The translations under genes were made by a program, and so were the position numbers. From IMG/VR virus record IMGVR_UViG_3300010148_000167, positions 1 to 20,405 of that record: DNA of 20,405 nucleotides, one strand, 5' to 3'. The stretch is from a virus. Of the stretch, positions 1-16,783 are shown piece after piece (within the stretch, counting starts at the first letter, position 1; each line of letters opens with the position of its first letter). The notes under the pieces are model-generated. The model did not search any database. It was not told the origin of the DNA and saw only the letters and a list, made by a program, of their open reading frames with translations.

Positions 1-6
1 ACTCAT
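1..6 (-). CDS. start of a further leftward gene (2 codons only)
   Basis: Only Met-Ser is inside the window. On the minus strand a GGAGG lies six bases before an ATG, and that ATG overlaps the TGA of the 101-aa gene as ATGA. This is the same coupling used by other genes in this operon, so the leftward operon continues beyond the edge. Nothing can be said about the product. Confidence 0.5.
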
Positions 7-308
7 GCTCCACCTCCGGACTTTCTGTTGTCTTTGATAGCAACAACCAAGTCTGATAAATGTTCGGCTCCTTGTTGAAAGTCGTCAACGCTTTCCACGG
101 ACAACCTAAGAATAGAGTCAAGATAATCTCGAATAGACTCAACCTCATCTAGACTTATAGCGTCTAGTCTTGTGACACTATCTACTCGAATAGACAATTG
201 TCTGCTTGTCCTCTTAATCACATCAACTGCCAATAGCAAGTCGTTGACTATATCTTTCAGAACTATACGTTCATCTATATATAACATTTCTTCTTTAACT
301 TTTGTCAT
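3..308 (-). CDS. 101-aa acidic helical protein of unknown function
   Basis: The product is not recognised. It is a short, charged, largely alpha-helical protein with many Leu, Val and Asp residues spaced as in a coiled coil or helical bundle (about residues 15-90), ending in a Gly-rich tail. It has no signal peptide, membrane segment or cysteines. The ATG overlaps the stop of the zinc-motif gene by four bases (ATGA), with AAGGAGG just upstream, so it is translationally coupled. It is probably a small partner in the leftward early or accessory operon. It sits in the mRNA segment that would begin at the leftmost hammerhead ribozyme. Confidence 0.75.
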   Translation of the reverse strand: MTKVKEEMLYIDERIVLKDIVNDLLLAVDVIKRTSRQLSIRVDSVTRLDAISLDEVESIRDYLDSILRLSVESVDDFQQGAEHLSDLVVAIKDNRKSGGGA

Positions 309-1033
309 GCTACACCTCCTTGCATTTCAAATTGTTTTTTAGTCGGATACGTTAACTGATACTTCTTAGCACAATGCTTTCCATATCCGTACGCTTTCGA
401 GATATCGTCAGACAATCTCCTCTTGCAGAAAGAACATTGACCGGTCAACTGTCCGAACTCTCGGACAACTTTCTCAGGGTCAAGGGCAATTGCATTTAGA
501 GTATTGACTGCTTCGTCTTTGATTGCTTGTTTCTCAAAGTCCAACTGAACATTAGAGTATCTAAAGTGAGGAAAGAACAATCCGTTCAAGTCCACTCTAC
601 CAAGATACTCTTTGCCATATTGAAAGTCAGGGTCACAACTGACGAGCAACTGCAACTGACCTTCAAACTTTGACTTGTCAGTAGCAATGTACATCTTCAG
701 AAACCAATCAGCATTTCCGGAACTACCTCCGGCAATCGGAACTGACATAGCAACTCTGATAGATGAAAAGTTAGGAACTCTGTTTAGGAACTCCAACACT
801 TTGCTTATCTCATTGACTTGAATAGTCTCTTTAGGTTTTGGAGGAGCAAGAACTTTGTCTCGTATCTTCGCAACCATAGTCCATTGTTTCTCGGACAAGT
901 TACCCTTCATGTCTAATTGATGTCTGACACTTCTTAAAAAAGAAACGTCCCATTTTGTGTGGTCGTCATGCTTACAAACCTCTGTAAACATTCCTTCTTT
1001 GGCTAACCACAACTGTAGTTTTAAATCTTCCAT
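305..1033 (-). CDS. 242-aa phage protein with C-terminal CxxC/HC zinc motif (DUF6011-like)
   Basis: The N-terminal 60 residues are helical and Trp-rich. The middle (about 65-185) looks like a mixed alpha/beta domain. The C terminus carries C200-x2-C203, then G216-Y-G, then H220-C221 followed by AKKY, the pattern I associate with the small zinc-binding domain DUF6011 found in phage and plasmid proteins. Function is unknown; nucleic acid binding is an inference from the zinc knuckle. The start is fixed by GGAGGT a few bases before the ATG. It is the first gene after the hammerhead at 1061-1118, so its mRNA leader would be ribozyme-cleaved. It overlaps the next gene by four bases. Confidence 0.8.
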   Translation of the reverse strand: MEDLKLQLWLAKEGMFTEVCKHDDHTKWDVSFLRSVRHQLDMKGNLSEKQWTMVAKIRDKVLAPPKPKETIQVNEISKVLEFLNRVPNFSSIRVAMSVPIAGGSSGNADWFLKMYIATDKSKFEGQLQLLVSCDPDFQYGKEYLGRVDLNGLFFPHFRYSNVQLDFEKQAIKDEAVNTLNAIALDPEKVVREFGQLTGQCSFCKRRLSDDISKAYGYGKHCAKKYQLTYPTKKQFEMQGGVA

Positions 1034-1060: not shown

Positions 1061-1118
1061 AAACTGATTTCATACTTTTGTAATCATTCAGACCAAGCAC
1101 ACACTTGATTATCAGTTT
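1061..1118 (-). ncRNA. type III hammerhead ribozyme, copy with core insertion (5' UTR of the 242-aa gene)
   Basis: Read on the minus strand. Stem III is AAACUGA (1118-1112) with UCAGUUU (1067-1061), plus U16.1 (1111) pairing the last A of GAAA. H17 is A at 1110, so cleavage would fall between 1110 and 1109. Stem I is AUCAAG (1109-1104) with CUUGGU (1097-1092), one U-G pair, loop UGUGUG. The conserved box reads CUGAAUGA (1091-1084), one base longer than CUGANGA. Stem II is UUAC/GUAU around loop AAAA, with a U-U mismatch at its base. GAAA is at 1071-1068. Both ends lie in stem III, hence type III. The fold is clear; catalytic activity is less certain because of the insertion. Confidence 0.8.
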
Positions 1119-1154
1119 TTTTAGAGGTGAAAATTTGCGTCCCGTGACTAACAT

Positions 1155-1188
1155 TAGAGAAAATATTTACTAGTAAATACTTTCTCTA
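1155..1188 (-). other. 15-bp hairpin with CTAG loop upstream of the hammerhead
   Basis: The arms 1155-1169 and 1174-1188 are complementary around CTAG at 1170-1173. The single non-Watson-Crick position is G-U on the minus strand but A-C on the plus strand, so the structure fits the leftward RNA. An outer 6-bp stem (1143-1148 with 1194-1199) encloses it. No U-run follows directly, so it is not a classic terminator. It would sit near the 3' end of the VWA mRNA after ribozyme cleavage and may protect that end or be an RNase III site (inference). Confidence 0.7.
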
Positions 1189-1241
1189 CAAGGGTCACGA
1201 AACACAAACTGTTACACATGGTGTAAAACTTTCGGGGAAAA

Positions 1242-1262
1242 GGTGTTCACTTAATGAACACC
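1242..1262 (-). terminator. hairpin over the VWA gene stop codon, followed by UUUU
   Basis: A perfect 8-bp stem GGTGTTCA/TGAACACC with a 5-base loop spans the last codons and the TGA of the VWA gene. On the minus strand it is followed by TTTTCCCC. The U-run is short, so it is a weak or partial intrinsic terminator. A second small hairpin (TTACAC/GTGTAA, 1212-1226) lies just beyond it. Confidence 0.5.
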
Positions 1263-2701
1263 CTCTCGCCAAAAGGCATATCCTTTTTTGGATTAGAAAA
1301 TCCATAGTAACCTTCAACAGTAAAGACATGAATAACCGGTAAGTTATCAGGCATTGGCTCGTCCAAGTCTTCCATTTCAAACTCGTCCTCTCCGTCCGAG
1401 AAGTGAATGAGCAAGTCGACCTCGTCTCTCTCTTCAAGCTTAGAAAGGAAAGCATTGAAACCGGCAACACCATAAGTACCACCGGAGCCATGACATGGGA
1501 ACGTATCCTTGTCCGGCATACAGTCTCCTTGAGTCGTGTCGAACAAGTCGAAGTATTCTCCTTGCTCATTTCTAAAATGGTTAGAGGCATACCTTCCGAC
1601 CCACAGTTTCTCAACTGCAAACTCCTCAAGCAACGTCATGGTTTCTGTAATGAATTCATCACGACACCATTCGGTACTGCCTGATACGTCATTGAGAATG
1701 ACAACGTTTTTTATTTCGTTCTCACGTTTCTTTGACGGCAAGATTAGTCCGGAGTGTTGATACTTTTTATTGAGTCGAGCGTAAGACCTCTTGTTGGATT
1801 TACGAGAGGTTAGTATCTCTCTCAAGTAATCATTCCATGCAACCTGAGGTCTTTTGATTTCTCCGGCTCTGCCTCCAAGGTAGTCAACGTTGCCTGAGTC
1901 TCCTTTCATTCCTTCAAGTTTATCTGCCATGAGAACTTGTTGGTCAAGTCTCGTTTGCTCCTCTCGAATTTCTTGAGGAGTGAGGTCTTGTCCGTCTTCG
2001 TCCTTCAAGTCAATGACACCACCAACCGGCTGAGGCAAGTCGTCAAGATTGACTCCACCTTGTCCGGACATTTGTCCTTCGGCTTCGTCCTCGTCCTCGT
2101 CCTGACTTTCGCCCTGACCCTGACCCTGACCCTGACCTTCGCCCTCGCCTGACTCAGACTCGTCTTGCTCAGACTCGCCTTGCTCGTCTGACTCTTGACC
2201 TAGTCCTTTCTCAACCTGAGACTTTGCCTTCTCCAACTCCTCGTCATTCGCATACAAGAAGTCATAGATTGCATTAGCCGACCATGACTGATACTTCCTA
2301 TCAAGTAGACCACCTTCCGGTAAATCTAAATTCAAGTCATACACAATGTATGAATTGATTGCATAGTCAGTAGCAATGTTCCAAAGCTTAGGGTGTCTTT
2401 CAAGACCACCTTCACACCTTCGAATATGATGTCCCCAAACAACGTGAAGTGACTCGTGAATAAGTACTCCTTTTATTTGCTCGAACTTCATAGACAAAGT
2501 GAAATCCGGAGAGTAAATAATACTCTTGCCGTCCGTAGCCATTGTCCCAATGGACTCGTCCTCTATGAGGTCAAGTCCTAAGAGAATAGAAGTCATGCCG
2601 GTAGCTGAGTCCATTAACTGTGACTTAGCTTTTGTTATGACTTGCTCTGCCGTTTGACCCATATACTCAGGTCGTCTTTGTGCAACGTTGTACTCACTCA
2701 T
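1247..2701 (-). CDS. VWA-domain protein with N-terminal HExxH metallopeptidase-like domain
   Basis: The 484-residue protein has two domains. The N-terminal part (about 20-160) carries H82-E83-S-L-H86-x4-H91, then a WNIATDYAIN segment near 107-116, matching the metallopeptidase-like DUF2201 N-terminal domain. A highly acidic Gly/Gln/Glu/Asp/Ser linker covers about 168-215. The C-terminal part (about 330-484) is a von Willebrand A fold with an intact MIDAS: D338-x-S340-x-S342, a GGT at 407-409 and SDGED at 435-439. Such proteins pair with MoxR ATPases, as here, and are thought to act in metal-dependent remodelling of partner proteins. The phage role is unknown. GGAGG just before the ATG lies inside the end of the upstream gene, with an 8-base overlap. 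Both active sites look complete, so it is not degenerate. Confidence 0.9.
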   Translation of the reverse strand: MSEYNVAQRRPEYMGQTAEQVITKAKSQLMDSATGMTSILLGLDLIEDESIGTMATDGKSIIYSPDFTLSMKFEQIKGVLIHESLHVVWGHHIRRCEGGLERHPKLWNIATDYAINSYIVYDLNLDLPEGGLLDRKYQSWSANAIYDFLYANDEELEKAKSQVEKGLGQESDEQGESEQDESESGEGEGQGQGQGQGESQDEDEDEAEGQMSGQGGVNLDDLPQPVGGVIDLKDEDGQDLTPQEIREEQTRLDQQVLMADKLEGMKGDSGNVDYLGGRAGEIKRPQVAWNDYLREILTSRKSNKRSYARLNKKYQHSGLILPSKKRENEIKNVVILNDVSGSTEWCRDEFITETMTLLEEFAVEKLWVGRYASNHFRNEQGEYFDLFDTTQGDCMPDKDTFPCHGSGGTYGVAGFNAFLSKLEERDEVDLLIHFSDGEDEFEMEDLDEPMPDNLPVIHVFTVEGYYGFSNPKKDMPFGERVFIK

Positions 2702-3650
2702 TGTCGCCTCCCATTAGTCCACCGAAGATAGAGTCGTTGAGACTTTTCTTCGCTGTAGTTATTTCTTCTTTCATAGACTCTCGGTTTTCAACTGCAAGGT
2801 CGTCCTTGCCTTTGAGAGACTCTATGCCGTTTGATACTTTGGTTAAGGTCGCAGTCACTTGAGATATCACACCGGACAATTTCTTACTGTTAAGAAGCTT
2901 GTCGTTGATACTCTGAGCGTCCTCAACTTTAGCCTTGAGGTTATCAAAGACTGCACGTTTAAAGAACGACCCTTTGTTGCCTTCCTTTTCCATTGCAACT
3001 AAGACATTGTCTAGAGCCTCAGTCAGTCCGGCTATTTGCTCTTTGGCAATCATGTTGTGAGTATCTTTGAAATTACTCGCAACTTGACTCTCAATCATTG
3101 AACGTTGCTCGGCTGACAATTGAACTCTAGCGTCATTAGAAAATGACACAGACTCGAAGGCTCCAAACTGTATTTCAAATTTGCACTTCGCTCTGAAAGT
3201 TTCTACATCATCATAGTTATTGATGTCGAAAGCTTCGCCCAATTTCTTCTTGGCATTTTCAATATGCCAATCATAATTTGAACAAAACGAGTCAACTGCT
3301 TTTTCAAACATTGCCTTGTGTTGCTTGTAGAGTTTCTCTAACTGAGTCACTTTGTCGTTAGGAATAATTCTCCATTGTGAAGAGTTAGTATCTCCGTCCG
3401 ACCAAGGATAAGACAACGGCTTAAACACAGTCGTCTCAAACGCTACAAAGTATTTCCTAAAATAGGAATTGATTTTCTCCGGAAACAAATAATCCGAAGC
3501 TGTGTGCATAGAAGGGTCAGAGTCAAACAACTTTGCTAACTCCTTCTTGCTCCTAGGATTGACCTTTTGGTCAGAGGGTAAACCTCTGCGAAAGACCACC
3601 TTAACAAACGAGTCTGAAAAGACAGACTCTAACGTTTTATTTTTATTCAT
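2694..3650 (-). CDS. 318-aa helical protein between MoxR and VWA genes (DUF3150-like)
   Basis: Almost entirely helical, with coiled-coil stretches in the second half. An N-terminal segment of Arg, Trp and aromatic residues (about 15-105) includes a WRIIP motif. Composition and position between a MoxR ATPase and a VWA gene fit the phage DUF3150 family; this is recalled resemblance only. An ATG at 3662 is possible, but GGAGG lies between it and the ATG at 3650, so the later start is chosen. The leader directly upstream is the canonical hammerhead at 3678-3737. It is probably the third subunit or substrate adaptor of the MoxR-VWA set (inference). No signal peptide, membrane segment or enzyme motif was seen. 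Confidence 0.85.
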   Translation of the reverse strand: MNKNKTLESVFSDSFVKVVFRRGLPSDQKVNPRSKKELAKLFDSDPSMHTASDYLFPEKINSYFRKYFVAFETTVFKPLSYPWSDGDTNSSQWRIIPNDKVTQLEKLYKQHKAMFEKAVDSFCSNYDWHIENAKKKLGEAFDINNYDDVETFRAKCKFEIQFGAFESVSFSNDARVQLSAEQRSMIESQVASNFKDTHNMIAKEQIAGLTEALDNVLVAMEKEGNKGSFFKRAVFDNLKAKVEDAQSINDKLLNSKKLSGVISQVTATLTKVSNGIESLKGKDDLAVENRESMKEEITTAKKSLNDSIFGGLMGGDNE

Positions 3651-3677
3651 ATATACCTCCATGAAATAAAAAATTTA

Positions 3678-3737
3678 ATAAACTGATTTCGTACTCTTGT
3701 ACTCATCAGACCGAGTCACACTCGGTTATCAGTTTAT
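3678..3737 (-). ncRNA. type III hammerhead ribozyme, canonical core (5' UTR of the 318-aa gene)
   Basis: Read on the minus strand. Stem III is AUAAACUGA (3737-3729) with UCAGUUUAU (3686-3678), all nine pairs Watson-Crick, plus U16.1 (3728) pairing the last A of GAAA. H17 is A at 3727, giving cleavage between 3727 and 3726. Stem I is ACCGAG (3726-3721) with CUCGGU (3715-3710), perfect, loop UGUGA. The core is CUGAUGA (3709-3703). Stem II is GUAC (3702-3699) with GUAC (3694-3691), loop AAGA. GAAA is at 3690-3687. Every conserved core base is present. Both ends are in stem III, so type III. The start codon of the downstream gene lies 28 bases beyond, after GGAGG. Confidence 0.93.
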
Positions 3738-3743
3738 GGGAGC

Positions 3744-3778
3744 GAGAGAAAATACTTTACTAGTAAAATATTTCTCTC
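3744..3778 (-). other. ~15-bp hairpin with CTAG loop upstream of the canonical hammerhead
   Basis: The arms 3744-3759 and 3764-3778 pair around CTAG (3760-3763) with one bulged base. One pair is G-U on the minus strand, again pointing to leftward RNA. It is closely similar in sequence to the hairpin at 1155-1188 (both have GAGA-rich arms and an ACTAGT centre). No U-run follows. It lies between the MoxR stop and the ribozyme, so it would end up close to the 3' end of the MoxR mRNA after cleavage. Confidence 0.7.
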
Positions 3779-3789
3779 ACTACCAAACA

Positions 3790-3819
3790 AATCAAGACCT
3801 ACAGAATTAGGTTTTGATT
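3790..3819. repeat. 12-bp inverted repeat over the MoxR stop codon
   Basis: The arms 3790-3801 and 3808-3819 are complementary except at one position, with a 6-base loop. The MoxR TAG stop is at 3799-3801. The odd pair is G-U on the plus strand and A-C on the minus strand, so strand sense is unclear. The VWA gene also ends in a hairpin over its stop, suggesting a shared 3'-end design. Confidence 0.45.
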
Positions 3820-4905
3820 ATCCACACGGAATTGACCGAACGCCTTGCTCTTCTCCAACTCCGGTCTTGCTCCAACACAAGAGCGAACGAAGTAGATACC
3901 GAACTCAGCCGTTGGGAATTTCTCAACATACTTGAGAGCATTTTCCCAATAGGAAACTAAGTCCTTGTCCTTGCACTCAGACAAGACCTTAACGAGTCCA
4001 CAGCAAGTCGCATATTGAAGACCAACTCCTTCCGGAACTTCCACGTCCTCGCCACTCACAATGTCGTCAAGGGACGGGACATTTTGCATGAGGTTAACGA
4101 ACGTTAAGAACTCAGACGTACTCTCTGAGCCGACACAACCACTCATTAACTTGCCGAAGATTATATTCGTTAAGTCATTCTCAAACTTACGAACTATCGG
4201 ACTAGCCATTGCCCAAGTCCTTGAGGAACTCTGACTCTCTTTCAACTTAGGGTCAAAGTTATTTAAGAACTGAGGCTGGTAGTTTATGAACGAAGTCACG
4301 AGAGGGTGTACGTTATTCTTAGTCGCCCAAGCCAACCAAGAATTAGTGTCGCCTTCCACGTGCATTTCAATCACTCGGTCTAGCAAGTGAGAGAGAATAG
4401 AATTGGCTCCGGCTCTGTCCGTTTGCCTATTACCGGCTAAGACAATTTTGAAACCCTCGGCAATTTTAGTCTCGCCAATTATCCTCTCACGTACACCACG
4501 TCCGGCAATCTTTTGCATTTCCGGAGTAGCTTGTGCGAACTCGTCAAGGAACAGAACTCCATTACCTGATACCGGTAAGTTTTGTAACTGAGCAAGTTTT
4601 TGTACCGGCTCTCCTTCGACCATATCAACTATAGGAACACCTCGTGTGTCTTCCGGCTCCAAGTCTGCAATTCTCAAATCAATGAGAGAGAACTCGTCTT
4701 CACTCGGATTTATTTTTCCGTAGACAAGCTTTCTACCATTAGCGAGAGTCTTCGCATATTGTTCGACAAGTGATGACTTACCGATACCAACTCCTCCAAG
4801 TAAACAAGGAACTAATTCTGTTCCGTCTTCACTCTTCAAGTCTTTGATTTCCAACATAGTCTCAAGGACTTCTGAGGGAGTATATGTTTTATCTTTTGCA
4901 CTCAT
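3799..4905 (-). CDS. MoxR-type AAA+ ATPase
   Basis: A 368-residue AAA+ ATPase. Walker A is G37-G-V-G-I-G-K43-S44. Walker B is VLFLDEF with D121-E122. Sensor 1 is the N159 of LAGNRQTDRAG. A candidate arginine finger is R177 in LLDRVIEMHV. The C-terminal lid is helical. Members of this family form hexamers and act as remodelling ATPases with VWA-domain partners; the VWA gene lies two genes downstream. AAAGGAGGT precedes the ATG, which overlaps the upstream TAA as TAATG. It is co-transcribed with the 41-aa gene behind the hammerhead at 5057-5110 and followed by two hairpins and the hammerhead at 3678-3737. The target in the infected cell is unknown. Confidence 0.92.
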   Translation of the reverse strand: MSAKDKTYTPSEVLETMLEIKDLKSEDGTELVPCLLGGVGIGKSSLVEQYAKTLANGRKLVYGKINPSEDEFSLIDLRIADLEPEDTRGVPIVDMVEGEPVQKLAQLQNLPVSGNGVLFLDEFAQATPEMQKIAGRGVRERIIGETKIAEGFKIVLAGNRQTDRAGANSILSHLLDRVIEMHVEGDTNSWLAWATKNNVHPLVTSFINYQPQFLNNFDPKLKESQSSSRTWAMASPIVRKFENDLTNIIFGKLMSGCVGSESTSEFLTFVNLMQNVPSLDDIVSGEDVEVPEGVGLQYATCCGLVKVLSECKDKDLVSYWENALKYVEKFPTAEFGIYFVRSCVGARPELEKSKAFGQFRVDNQNLIL

Positions 4906-5030
4906 TAGTACACCTCCTTTTTTGTAACAACTTCTGCTTCGAACTTGTTAAGTTTAAATTTCGCAATAGGTCTTTTTCTATTACGTCTGTTCAGTTTAGA
5001 GACATGAACGTCTGTCATTTGTATATTCAT
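4905..5030 (-). CDS. 41-aa basic protein upstream of MoxR
   Basis: A small Lys/Arg-rich protein with an NRRNRKRP stretch near the middle, not recognised. An in-frame ATG at 5093 would give 62 residues, but that extension lies inside the hammerhead fold, while AGGAGG sits a few bases before the ATG at 5030, so the shorter form is called. Its stop overlaps the MoxR start as TAATG. The positive charge suggests nucleic acid or acidic-protein binding, or simply a leader coupling translation to MoxR. Confidence 0.65.
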   Translation of the reverse strand: MNIQMTDVHVSKLNRRNRKRPIAKFKLNKFEAEVVTKKEVY

Positions 5031-5056
5031 ATTTCCTCCTAAGAAATATATTAAGT

Positions 5057-5110
5057 TAACTGTTTCTGCTTTCGCTTCATTCAGACTAGGCACACACCTA
5101 GTGACAGTTA
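5057..5110 (-). ncRNA. type III hammerhead ribozyme, copy with core insertion (5' UTR of the 41-aa/MoxR genes)
   Basis: Read on the minus strand. Stem III is UAACUG (5110-5105) with CAGUUA (5062-5057), plus U16.1 (5104) pairing the last A of GAAA. H17 is C at 5103, giving the classical GUC triplet and cleavage between 5103 and 5102. Stem I is ACUAGG (5102-5097) with CCUAGU (5090-5085), perfect, loop UGUGUG. The box is CUGAAUGA (5084-5077), the same one-base-longer form as at 1061-1118. Stem II is GC/GC capped by GAAA with an A-A mismatch at its base. GAAA is at 5066-5063. Position, strand and stem I loop match the other copies. Activity is uncertain because stem II is very short and the core has the insertion. 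Confidence 0.8.
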
Positions 5111-5113
5111 GAA

Positions 5114-5150
5114 ATTTGAAAGGGATAACAAAACGCTATCCCCTTCAAAT
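5114..5150 (-). other. 14-bp hairpin upstream of the rightmost hammerhead
   Basis: The arms 5114-5127 and 5137-5150 pair over 14 positions with a 9-base loop. The one imperfect pair is G-U on the minus strand and A-C on the plus strand, so it fits leftward RNA. Its sequence differs from the two CTAG hairpins, but it has the same place: just 5' of a hammerhead and 3' of coding-like sequence. A short run of U follows (TTTC), too short for a clear terminator. Confidence 0.65.
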
Positions 5151-5197
5151 AGTTTGGTTAGGAATTACTGTCGCAAAGAAAATTATTTAGGGTCTGT

Positions 5198-5528
5198 TTA
5201 TTTAACATCAAGACTCGGTCTTGTTGGAGCAATTGCTGTCACTTTGCTTTCAAGACCTACCGGTTTCGTATCTGTTTCAATACTCCATATACCGGTTAGG
5301 TAAGGGTGTTTGAGGTACGGCTAAAATTGTTCCACCAATCTATCATCACGACCTGACCTAGTTTTTGGGTTATAAAGAATACTAGGACGACCTTCACGGA
5401 GTCTGTACAAATAGACTACCGATAAAAAATTAAAACTACTTCTGTGTGAACACCTCCTCGAAAATTATGACGAGTTTGAGCCTCAAGTCCTTGCTTGATT
5501 TTTGGGTACTGAAAAACGTCATTGCCAT
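5198..5528 (-). pseudogene. damaged short gene (two frames plus an in-frame amber)
   Basis: Not recognised. The minus strand holds coding-like sequence in pieces. An ATG at 5528 opens 30 codons ending in TAG (5436-5438). In the +1 frame, an open stretch from about 5449 runs through Arg/Leu/Gly-rich sequence (YRLREGRPSILYNPKTR near 5323-5410) to an amber at 5321-5323. The same frame then continues for 40 protein-like codons (PYLKHPYLTGIW onward) to a TAA at 5198-5200. A GAGGAGGTG at about 5451-5460 has no ATG at the right distance. TAG is used as a true stop elsewhere here (MoxR, 72-aa region, 40-aa gene), so recoding is unlikely. The simplest reading is a decayed gene or sequencing errors. 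It occupies the place a gene should have, before a hairpin-hammerhead unit. Confidence 0.4.
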
Positions 5529-5534
5529 AAGTGG

Positions 5535-5543
5535 ATTATAGCA
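5535..5543 (-). promoter_or_regulatory. extended -10 promoter for the leftward operon
   Basis: The minus strand reads TGCTATAAT, a perfect extended -10. There is only a weak -35 about 17 bases upstream, which is usual for extended -10 promoters. Predicted initiation is near 5527-5528, at or beside an ATG. It is the best promoter candidate in the divergent region between the two arms. Confidence 0.6.
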
Positions 5544-5626
5544 AAACATACCCTTAAATGTACCTCTATTTAGCTATCAGTCTGTGGTCATTACGTGGGA
5601 AAAGGTTTACCGGTAAAATGTTTTGT

Positions 5627-6130
5627 ATGAGTGATGAGAAAAAACCAGACCTAAAAATAGTCGGCACGAAACCGAAACCAGAAACAGACCTTACTCCTAA
5701 ACAGAGAGCCTTCATTGAAGAGATAGTAAAAGGTAAAACAACTTACAAAGAAGCATACGCAAAAGTTTATGACGTGAAGTTAAACAAGAACGGCTCCATT
5801 CCTAAATGGGTAAATGTAGAAGCGAGTAAGATGTTAGCTAACCCTAAGATTTCCCTAAGCATACAACGTGCTATCAGTAAGCGAGAGGAGGGAGTAGTAG
5901 CTTCCTCTATCCGTACGAGGAGTTATGTTTTAGAAAGGCTCCATGCAGAGAGTAGAGGAGACAACGAGGACTCTACTCCGGCAAGTAGAGTTAGGTCTTT
6001 GGAACTACTAGGAAAAACTTCCGGTATGTTTACCGATACAGTCGAAGTAAAAGAACAGAGAGACTCCTCAACAATTGAGGCAGAGATACTCAGACTGTTA
6101 GAGAACGAAGTCGTAGACGACCACCACTAA
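5627..6130 (+). CDS. putative terminase small subunit
   Basis: A 167-residue charged helical protein. The N-terminal part has LTPKQRAFIEEIVKG followed by TYKEAYAKVYD, the signature of the helix-turn-helix DNA-binding region of many small terminases. Next is a NVEASKMLANPKIS segment, then helices likely to form the oligomerisation ring. In the family it recognises packaging sites and hands DNA to the large subunit, which is the next gene. Earlier in-frame ATGs at 5558 and 5618 exist. The one at 5627 is preferred because MSDEKK gives a typical soluble N terminus and the upstream residues are hydrophobic and atypical, but no Shine-Dalgarno site decides it (GGAAAAGG at 5598-5605 would suit 5618 slightly better). 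Confidence 0.75.
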   Translation: MSDEKKPDLKIVGTKPKPETDLTPKQRAFIEEIVKGKTTYKEAYAKVYDVKLNKNGSIPKWVNVEASKMLANPKISLSIQRAISKREEGVVASSIRTRSYVLERLHAESRGDNEDSTPASRVRSLELLGKTSGMFTDTVEVKEQRDSSTIEAEILRLLENEVVDDHH

Positions 6131-15307: not shown

Positions 15308-15607
15308 ATGGCAAGTAAGAAAGCAATAATTTCTACAAGTGGTTTTCCCCCACAGTATTTTGTTTTACAAGCAAATGATGAAGGTATTTTTGAAGTTGTA
15401 TTTGGACCTGACCCTGATTTAGTTGATGCTCAAAGAAAAGCAGATGAACTAAATGGTGTCAGAGCTAGAACAACAAAAGGTCACTATGTGGCTGATGACC
15501 CTTCAACACCTGATGTAAATGAAGCATATGTAGGTGGAAAAACACCAAAGAAAAAAACAACTAAGAAAAAACCCGTAGCTAAGAAAAAAGCTACTACAAA
15601 AAAGTGA
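15308..15607 (+). CDS. 99-aa protein with lysine-rich tail
   Basis: Residues 1-75 look folded (FPPQYFVLQANDEGIFEVVFG, then DAQRKADELNG). The last 22 residues are almost only Lys, Thr, Ala, Pro and Val in a KKK/TTKK pattern like a histone-type tail. It opens the series of small basic genes. AAGGAG precedes the ATG. DNA or acidic-surface binding through the tail is likely, but the folded part gives no family. Confidence 0.7.
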   Translation: MASKKAIISTSGFPPQYFVLQANDEGIFEVVFGPDPDLVDAQRKADELNGVRARTTKGHYVADDPSTPDVNEAYVGGKTPKKKTTKKKPVAKKKATTKK

Positions 15608-15614
15608 GGTAATT

Positions 15615-15770
15615 ATGCCCGGTGGAATGATGAAAAAGAAACAGCCACAAATGTATGGCGATGGTGGCAAGATGAAAAAACAAACTGCACAAACCTATAT
15701 GGGTGGTGGAGTTATGAAAAAGAAAGCACCTATGTCTGCAATGTTCCGTGGTGGTAAAACAGGCAAATAA
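15615..15770 (+). CDS. 51-aa Gly/Met/Lys repeat protein
   Basis: A 51-residue protein with a repeated GG-x-M-KKK unit (about residues 3-9, 17-22 and 30-37) separated by Gln/Tyr/Met-rich spacers, ending FRGGKTGK. GAGGT lies six bases before the ATG, and the TAA overlaps the next ATG as TAATG, which supports real translation despite the small size. Function unknown; similar tiny Gly-Met-Lys proteins occur in marine phage structural modules (recalled). Confidence 0.7.
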   Translation: MPGGMMKKKQPQMYGDGGKMKKQTAQTYMGGGVMKKKAPMSAMFRGGKTGK

Positions 15771-16063
15771 TGTCAGGAGCTAAGAAGGACTCTCGTTTAA
15801 AAAGAGCAGGAGTATCAGGTTATAACAAACCAAAGCGTACTCCTAGCCACCCTAAGAAGTCTCATATTGTTGTTGCCAAAGAAGGTAGCAAAGTAAAAAC
15901 CATTAGGTTTGGACAGAAAGGTGCTAAGACTGCAGGTAAACCTAAAGCAGGAGAGTCTGCAAGAATGAAAGCAAAACGAAAATCCTTCAAAGCTCGTCAT
16001 GCAAAGAATATTAAAAAAGGTAAGATGTCAGCAGCTTATTGGGCAGATAAGGTGAAGTGGTGA
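15770..16063 (+). CDS. 97-aa highly basic protein (DUF6321-like)
   Basis: Very Lys/Arg-rich throughout. Conserved-looking parts are AGVSGYNKPKRTPSHPKKSH (residues 13-32), TIRFGQKGAKTAGKPKAGES and FKARHAKNIKKGKMSAAYWA. This series is one I recall from many phage proteins of unknown function, named DUF6321 as best I remember. Start and stop overlap both neighbours (TAATG before, GTGA after). The compact basic fold with aromatic C terminus suggests nucleic acid binding, perhaps in the virion. Confidence 0.8.
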   Translation: MSGAKKDSRLKRAGVSGYNKPKRTPSHPKKSHIVVAKEGSKVKTIRFGQKGAKTAGKPKAGESARMKAKRKSFKARHAKNIKKGKMSAAYWADKVKW

Positions 16064-16248
16064 GTAGAGCAAAAAAATCAAAATCAAAAGTCAATGAGGC
16101 AGGAAACTATACTAAACCTACTATGCGTAAAAATTTATTCAACAGAATTAAAGCAGGTGGTAAAGGTGGTAAGCCGGGTCAATGGTCTGCACGTAAAGCT
16201 CAGATGTTAGCTAAACAATATAAAGCAAAAGGTGGTGGATATAAATGA
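16060..16248 (+). CDS. 62-aa highly basic protein
   Basis: Rich in Lys, Arg and Gly, with NEAGNYTKPTMRKNLFNRIK then KAGGKGGKPGQWSARKAQML, a pattern I recall from many marine phage proteins. The start is a GTG overlapping the previous stop as GTGA, with AAGGTG upstream; a second GTG one codon earlier is also possible. Ends GGGYK. Function unknown; the short helix-plus-glycine basic design suits DNA or RNA binding. Confidence 0.75.
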   Translation: MSRAKKSKSKVNEAGNYTKPTMRKNLFNRIKAGGKGGKPGQWSARKAQMLAKQYKAKGGGYK

Positions 16249-16544
16249 ATAAGAAACTTAGAGAAGTACCTGATAGCAATTCAGGATTAAAAAAACTTCC
16301 TTCTGATGTAAGAAATAAAATGGGCTACATGAAAGATGGAGGTCCAACTAAAAAAGCATCTTCAAAAAAAGTCTTAATAAAAGGAGCTGATGTTTCTGCT
16401 TTAACAAAGAGACAACAAGATACAATGAAGAAACATTCTAAACATCATACTAGTAAACATATGAAGTCTATGACTTCTATGATGAAAAAAGGTAAGACTT
16501 TTTCTCAAGCACATAAAGAAGCACAAAAGAAAGTTGGGTCTTAA
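16245..16544 (+). CDS. 99-aa basic, His/Met/Lys-rich protein
   Basis: The first part has LREVPDSNSGLKKLPSDVRN and KMGYMKDGG. The second (about 48-99) has ALTKRQQDTMKKHSKHHTSK, then repeated Met/Lys pairs and GKTFSQAHKEAQKK. Both halves resemble separate conserved phage small proteins (recalled), so it may be a fusion. The His/Lys cluster near residues 62-72 could bind metal or nucleic acid. It overlaps neighbours as ATGA and TAATG. Confidence 0.75.
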   Translation: MNKKLREVPDSNSGLKKLPSDVRNKMGYMKDGGPTKKASSKKVLIKGADVSALTKRQQDTMKKHSKHHTSKHMKSMTSMMKKGKTFSQAHKEAQKKVGS

Positions 16545-16783
16545 TGCCTTTAAAAAAATCACAAAGGTCTTTAAAAAATTGGACTAAACAAAAATGGAGA
16601 ACAAAGTCTGGAAAACCTTCAGGCAAAACAGGAGAGCGTTATCTTCCTGAAAAAGCAATTAAAGCTTTATCTTCTTCAGAGTATGCAGCTACAACGAAAG
16701 CTAAAAGAAAAGGAACTAAAAAAGGCAAACAGTTTGTTAAACAACCAAAGAACATTGCAAAAAAAACAGCGAGGTACAGATGA
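16544..16783 (+). CDS. 79-aa highly basic protein
   Basis: Contains PLKKSQRSLKNWTKQKWRTK near the start, GERYLPEKAIKALSSSEYAA in the middle and a basic C-terminal run ending KKTARYR. It resembles a widespread small phage protein of unknown function (recalled). About one residue in three is Lys or Arg, and there is no cysteine. It is coupled to both neighbours by TAATG and ATGA overlaps. Likely a structural or DNA-associated protein. Confidence 0.75.
   Translation: MPLKKSQRSLKNWTKQKWRTKSGKPSGKTGERYLPEKAIKALSSSEYAATTKAKRKGTKKGKQFVKQPKNIAKKTARYR

Follow-up and report, generated by a model that had tools for sequence, protein, structure and literature searches.

The left part of a 20,405-nucleotide (nt) virus record (IMG/VR IMGVR_UViG_3300010148_000167, positions 1 to 20,405; "the window" hereafter means this whole stretch) is a leftward operon with MoxR-like and VWA-like genes, and packaging and head genes (terminase, portal, capsid) form a rightward module in its right part. 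The operon carries three type III hammerhead ribozymes, and related phages carry hammerheads in the same gaps. These structures are conserved, occur only in the operon sense, are confined to the gaps of this operon and have a strong hairpin and a ribosome site as neighbors. We consider it likely, with a probability of roughly 70%, that hairpin, ribozyme and ribosome site form a punctuation element by which the operon RNA is cut into segments whose ends are defined.

Hammerheads in the operon and its relatives

As an independent test we used an a priori hammerhead descriptor (types I, II and III) that had not been trained on these sequences. In the 20 kb window it gave exactly three matches, designated A, B and C:

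5057..5110, minus strand: hammerhead A, type III, operon leader; predicted cut 5103/5102; 65.9 bits
3678..3737, minus strand: hammerhead B, type III, intercistronic; predicted cut 3727/3726; 68.2 bits; z -4.1
1061..1118, minus strand: hammerhead C, type III, intercistronic; predicted cut 1110/1109; 74.9 bits

As controls, both strands of 1.0 Mb of Markov-shuffled sequence gave no match, and 332 kb of reversed sequence gave one. The three folds and all three predicted cut sites that had been proposed in an initial sequence-only reading of this DNA are present in the sequence. All three copies lie in the operon sense, and in each of them loops close stems I and II and stem III is open, which is the type III permutation. 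That reading had described all three folds as complete, and this holds for B, which has the three helices and every element of the hammerhead core (C3-U-G-A-N-G-A9 ... G12-A-A, A15.1-U16.1, H17). Its core is fully consensus (CUGAUGA, GAAA, AUA at the cut; G-C at 10.1/11.1), with stem II GUAC-AAGA-GUAC and a stem III of 10 base pairs (bp). Hammerheads A and C have all of these elements except at two places: their core is CUGAAUGA, with one additional A after A6 (the A6a insertion), and position 10.1/11.1 is mismatched (A.A in A, U.U in C); stem II of A has 2 bp. One hammerhead per intercistronic gap had also been proposed, which is correct for B and C; hammerhead A lies in the leader of the first gene because the next gene upstream, encoding the terminase small subunit, is divergent.

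To follow the elements beyond the window, we collected related loci from IMG/VR through their MoxR and VWA proteins and the alignments of these. Loci were thus chosen by protein and not by RNA, with the exception of a pattern-found set (L026-L043, of which L032, L034, L035 and L039 were counted). The resulting 144 loci are redundant, with MoxR proteins falling into 48 clusters at 95%, 26 at 80% and 16 at 60% identity. A covariance model built from 26 hammerhead copies and the descriptor together detect hammerheads in 141 of the 144 loci and in 25 of the 26 MoxR clusters at 80% identity. The 515 calls comprise 375 type III and 140 type I copies (305 distinct sequences, 215 and 90, respectively). 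Every call is in the operon sense, and neither the descriptor nor the covariance model finds an antisense hammerhead in the 144 loci. Several same-sense copies flank the phage genes, from three in the window to nine in a relative's operon (L162), where they precede nearly every non-overlapping gene. Scanned with the descriptor for all three hammerhead types, the near-complete genomes G001, G003, G006 and G007 (57-59 kb) carry copies in this operon alone. Synteny is kept down to about 30% protein identity. Four cultured phages with the nearest terminases (HTVC027P, HTVC023P, DSL-LC04, 023Pt_psg01) gave no genome-wide covariance-model hit, and MoxR-VWA genes are not annotated within the stretches of them that were read. 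Likewise, MoxR homologs from bacterial genomes (L229-L238) are not accompanied by hammerheads. A DNA-pattern scan for loop I and core recovered the family, along with unrelated contigs (L026, L036, L043) without convincing copies. The MAFFT alignment displaced the cut site between rows, so no covariance model was made from distant relatives only.

The Rfam check suggested with the sequence-only reading nominally failed because RF00008 fits these RNAs poorly. At gathering cut-offs there were zero hits to the window hammerheads, and in a 161-nt search RF00008 matched hammerhead B alone, scoring 15.4 bits where the cut-off is 48.5; this low score reflects the RF00008 model and not the fold. Gathering cut-offs can therefore overlook an abundant ribozyme group. 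The remaining Rfam matches, at gathering and permissive settings, were chance microRNA or snoRNA matches.

The same gaps are marked across the related phages, a comparison that had been called for at the outset. Among gaps of at least 85 nt, copies were called in 114 of 123 between MoxR and DUF3150, 34 of 40 between DUF3150 and VWA, and 77 of 84 after VWA (scored as a fixed 200-nt stretch), or 225 of 247 in total, and in none of 94 junctions shorter than 85 nt. On visual inspection, hammerheads with additional hairpins behind A9 are seen in several MoxR>DUF3150 gaps that had been scored as empty (L163, L168, L177), and L202 has a similar ribozyme minus this insert. Separately, the post-VWA gap of L017 (9649-9734) and L018 (8965-9050) contains hammerheads with one or more hairpins between A9 and stem II. 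Such hairpins are possibly a control domain or a tertiary-contact variant. The ribozyme type also changes: the MoxR>DUF3150 gap holds type III in most lineages and type I in L034, L118 and others, the DUF3150>VWA gap holds type I in L104 and L108, and the MoxR leader has either type depending on the lineage. The order of hairpin, cut and ribosome site is kept through these swaps at one site, which is hard to explain unless cutting is selected. In L093, L100, L119, L131 and L137, the type I copy of the MoxR>DUF3150 gap has a branched region in stem III with a recurring UUAAAC...GGUAUCGGUGACGA-like motif.

Stem sequences differ between copies and pairing is kept, as had been noted for the window. 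Standard pairs fill 91-92% of pair cells, compared to 34-48% with slid partners (91.1% against 34-44%, with 186 cells changed on both sides, in 34 distinct aligned copies; 91.9% against 36-48%, with 566 such cells, in 93 distinct copies mostly outside the training set). The covariation score is 0.77-0.84 against 0.05-0.16 for slid controls, in alignments that were fitted to the model and hence are biased towards it. Conservation extends to loop I (UGUG) and the purine-rich loop II; loop-loop contact speeds natural hammerheads, and conservation of both loops is expected for such contact.

Cores are consensus in most copies of the 144 loci. U.U is the commonest state at 10.1/11.1 (91 distinct copies of type III and 23 of type I), although outside this set of hammerheads the consensus is G-C. 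Every 8-nt core is identical (14/14), CUGAAUGA recurring in 14 distinct copies. In published tests the A6a insertion had low activity, and U.U at 10.1/11.1 was tolerated better than other mismatches (PMC3088659). We therefore predict that hammerhead B cuts fast and that A and C, which carry the insertion, are slower. Close relatives vary at gaps A and B in precisely these features (A6a, 10.1/11.1), so that their sequences hint at a cut rate that may be tuned gap by gap.

The adjoining hairpin and the ribosome site

Each window hammerhead is preceded by a strong hairpin:

5114..5150, minus strand: strong 16-bp hairpin just 5' of hammerhead A
3738..3784, minus strand: strong hairpin abutting hammerhead B with zero spacer
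1144..1198, minus strand: strong hairpin 5' of hammerhead C, about 25 nt away; its inner helix of 15 bp spans 1155-1188

The 50 nt 5' of type III copies in the related loci fold with a median of -13.8 kcal/mol, compared to -5.8 for shuffled, -6.9 for random and -6.4 kcal/mol for downstream sequence, and 71% of the copies reach -10 kcal/mol or lower, against 20, 21 and 3% of these controls. Fold energy superseded an earlier metric (nested pairs closing within 12 nt) that separated poorly (74% vs 51-53%). By the best-hairpin measure, a median of 3 nt separates the end of the hairpin from the ribozyme, and in simple type I copies the long hairpin is stem III itself. G.U pairs make up 536 of 3595 hairpin pairs in the sense strand but 171 of 2892 in the antisense strand, and folding is better in sense; both point to selection on RNA and not on a DNA palindrome.

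On the other side of the ribozyme, a Shine-Dalgarno site accompanies the start codon, which lies a median of 30 nt past type III and 50 nt past type I copies. Placement just before Shine-Dalgarno sites, claimed for the window from the start, thus holds there and is strengthened by the relatives. In the leaders of L017, L024, L025 and L162, the Shine-Dalgarno site often sits inside the loop of a tiny hairpin (for example TTGC-GGAGGT-GCAA, TGTCC-TTGGA-GGACA). The A/U-rich hairpins (1155-1188 and 3746-3780 in the window; gaps in L024 and L025) have in common a TTTACTAGTAAA- or TTTACCAGTAAA-like tip, a likeness across gaps and phages that exceeds what structure alone requires, and a protein may bind these tips.

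Cutting of the operon RNA and its alternatives

In the proposed mechanism, the composite element runs from strong hairpin through hammerhead and Shine-Dalgarno site to start codon. Transcription of the operon would yield a single long RNA in which every hammerhead cuts itself. The upstream piece would then end in a 3' hairpin and a short tail with a 2',3'-cyclic phosphate, protected from 3' exonucleases, and the downstream piece would begin with a 5'-OH, followed in type III by the folded ribozyme remnant, and carry its own ribosome site. Every cistron, or overlapping pair of cistrons, could thus have its own ends and stability, with possible effects on expression and no need for RNase III, RNase E, terminators or added promoters. 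With a fast B and slower A and C, the operon RNA might be cut in a graded manner along its length. Copy A and its equivalents, opposite the divergent terminase small-subunit gene, would trim a leader and not separate two genes. We also lean, somewhat less firmly, towards a general role of such ribozymes as punctuation of this one operon in a large clade of uncultured, mostly marine phages, in which self-cleavage would replace RNase III sites, terminators or extra promoters. A modular cassette of hairpin, hammerhead and ribosome site would stand at nearly all non-overlapping junctions and be retained while its ribozyme changes in permutation (III or I), in the sequence of its stems and in the speed of its core.

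Several points weigh against this mechanism. A single operon transcript is assumed. The A6a insertion found in A and C was of low activity when tested, and hammerhead C is thermodynamically unexceptional (z +0.65 over 101 nt), so that its support is comparative. In about 29% of type III copies the adjoining 50 nt form no hairpin that reaches -10 kcal/mol, and a few junctions longer than 85 nt, for example in L148-L152, appear truly empty.

The elements could instead be regulated leaders, cut conditionally in response to a ligand, ion, RNA or protein and switching genes instead of punctuating the RNA constitutively; the deviant cores and, in relatives, the hairpins after A9 would then be control handles. 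Such regulation has been proposed for slow phage variants (PMC3088659), and it would suit the ever-identical insertion in the slow core, the post-A9 hairpins of L163, L168 and L177 (none in L202) and the location of copies in leaders, 16-50 nt 5' of start codons. We consider this reading unlikely, however: most copies have a consensus core without a large inserted domain, no conserved aptamer-like domain was seen, and the same element precedes genes of unrelated function. It is less probable still that the hairpins are terminators or promoters/operators yielding separate transcripts, with hammerheads merely trimming 5' leaders. Copy A does lie in a leader with a weak sigma-70-like site upstream (5182-5211), and the leader hammerhead of haloviruses HF1/HF2 coincides with an RNA 5' end (PMC3088659). 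A terminator-like U tract (at least six T in the next 8 nt) follows 18 of 254 hairpins, but 236 of 254 lack one, and the hairpins do not have the make-up of an intrinsic terminator, a G+C-rich hairpin followed directly by a U tract; none of the three in the window was flagged in a terminator scan. The sigma-70 scan found no promoter-like site in gaps B and C and fewer such sites in the region than in shuffles. The G.U bias speaks against DNA palindromes, and in simple type I copies the hairpin belongs to the ribozyme.

Two further explanations seem very improbable to us. The ribozymes might mainly produce circular or ligated RNAs, if a gene were cut out at either side and the ends rejoined, since serial copies would free segments with compatible ends and hammerheads are able to ligate. 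Yet Perreault et al. detected no circular or spliced products when they looked for them in such arrays (PMC3088659). Circles would, moreover, not call for the common ribosome-site design, and it is at the 3' end of the segment that the strong hairpin lies. Alternatively, the copies could be selfish or drifting repeats without function for the phage. Copies within a genome are indeed alike, B and C sharing 89% over 35 nt, so duplication or conversion occurs. Against this, positions are kept across phages with about 30-45% protein identity, all copies are in the operon sense and confined to this operon in near-complete genomes, and types swap at the same site. We still regard cutting of the operon RNA as the best reading of the data.

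Known systems and the remaining window features

The ribozymes are hammerheads, and the system is a variant of clustered phage hammerheads. The permutation, core, UGUG-like loop I and purine-rich tetraloop II presumably match those of type III hammerheads from plant satellite RNAs (sTRSV, RF00008). In contrast to the latter, which process rolling-circle RNA, the copies here lie in phage mRNA, and similarity to RF00008 is weak. In T7 early RNA, host RNase III cuts the polycistronic phage RNA between genes at hairpins and leaves hairpins at the 3' ends; the proposed element would work like these sites, but the RNA would cut itself beside the hairpin.

The sequence-only reading mentioned hammerheads from phages and metagenomes but no earlier set of three that serially divides an operon around MoxR and VWA genes. 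Clusters of hammerheads that flank phage genes were described by Perreault et al. (2011) from Clostridium scindens, Azorhizobium caulinodans and the Agrobacterium tumefaciens ardA array. They proposed that the ribozymes cut the RNA into operon- or gene-length mRNAs and showed cleavage for three arrays, in vitro and, for one array, in E. coli (PMC3088659). These arrays share with ours several one-direction hammerheads flanking phage genes, the same proposed function and three rare variants, namely the A6a insertion, the U10.1-U11.1 mismatch and a stem II of 2 bp. Their flanked genes vary, whereas here the same operon and gaps are marked in nearly all MoxR clusters, with up to nine copies per operon, a partner hairpin, type I/III swaps and post-A9 hairpins. 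The HHphage hammerhead of HF1/HF2 likewise lies in a leader of a polycistronic phage transcript, 13 nt before a start codon, and an RNA 5' end has been mapped at most 3 nt from its cut site (PMC3088659). Unlike the window set, it is a single copy with an insertion near C3, in an archaeal virus from brine. The sequence-only reading was thus sound on type III identity, pairing and placement, and missed the core deviations, the leader position of A, the adjacent hairpins and this precedent. In the open-licence literature, preprints excluded, we found no report of operon-wide, position-conserved hammerheads in such phages, of a hairpin partner or of a type I/III swap at one site; although such silence is weak evidence, the conserved operon-wide form and the composite architecture look new. 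The function of phage and bacterial hammerheads has so far been an open question. Here, gains and losses, slow and fast cores and type I/III swaps provide natural replicates within one set of gaps in a single operon, and the partner hairpin predicts which end is protected, making the mRNA-punctuation idea directly testable.

The genes of the operon and the divergent gene upstream of it are as follows (ORF, open reading frame; aa, amino acids):

4905..5030, minus strand: 41-aa ORF; Shine-Dalgarno site and ATG 25 nt 3' of hammerhead A
3799..4905, minus strand: MoxR-like AAA ATPase (phrog_1297; AAA_5 below cut-off); start overlaps the 41-aa ORF
2694..3650, minus strand: DUF3150-like protein (weak match); start codon 29 nt past hammerhead B
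1247..2701, minus strand: VWA/metallopeptidase-like protein (DUF2201_N); overlaps the DUF3150 gene at a ribozyme-free junction
305..1033, minus strand: DUF6011 protein; start codon 27 nt past hammerhead C
3..308, minus strand: 101-aa ORF; overlaps the DUF6011 gene at a ribozyme-free junction
5633-6130, plus strand: terminase small subunit, divergent; next gene upstream of the operon

None of the three overlapping junctions (41-aa ORF/MoxR, DUF3150/VWA, DUF6011/101-aa ORF) has a hammerhead. For the VWA/metallopeptidase-like gene, the PHROG 1314 label "HNH endonuclease" disagrees with the Pfam match (DUF2201_N/VWA-like). The marine origin of the phages appears probable from seawater relatives of the terminase rather than from sample records, and a search for tRNA genes as host clues found none. 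Between the hairpin of hammerhead A and the terminase small-subunit gene, about 480 nt (5151-5632) are closely alike in the window and L009 and have no ORF of at least 50 aa on the operon strand; this interval likely holds divergent promoters and perhaps contains an RNA. In the structural module, six or seven small, very lysine-rich ORFs lie in a row at 15308-16783 (plus strand).

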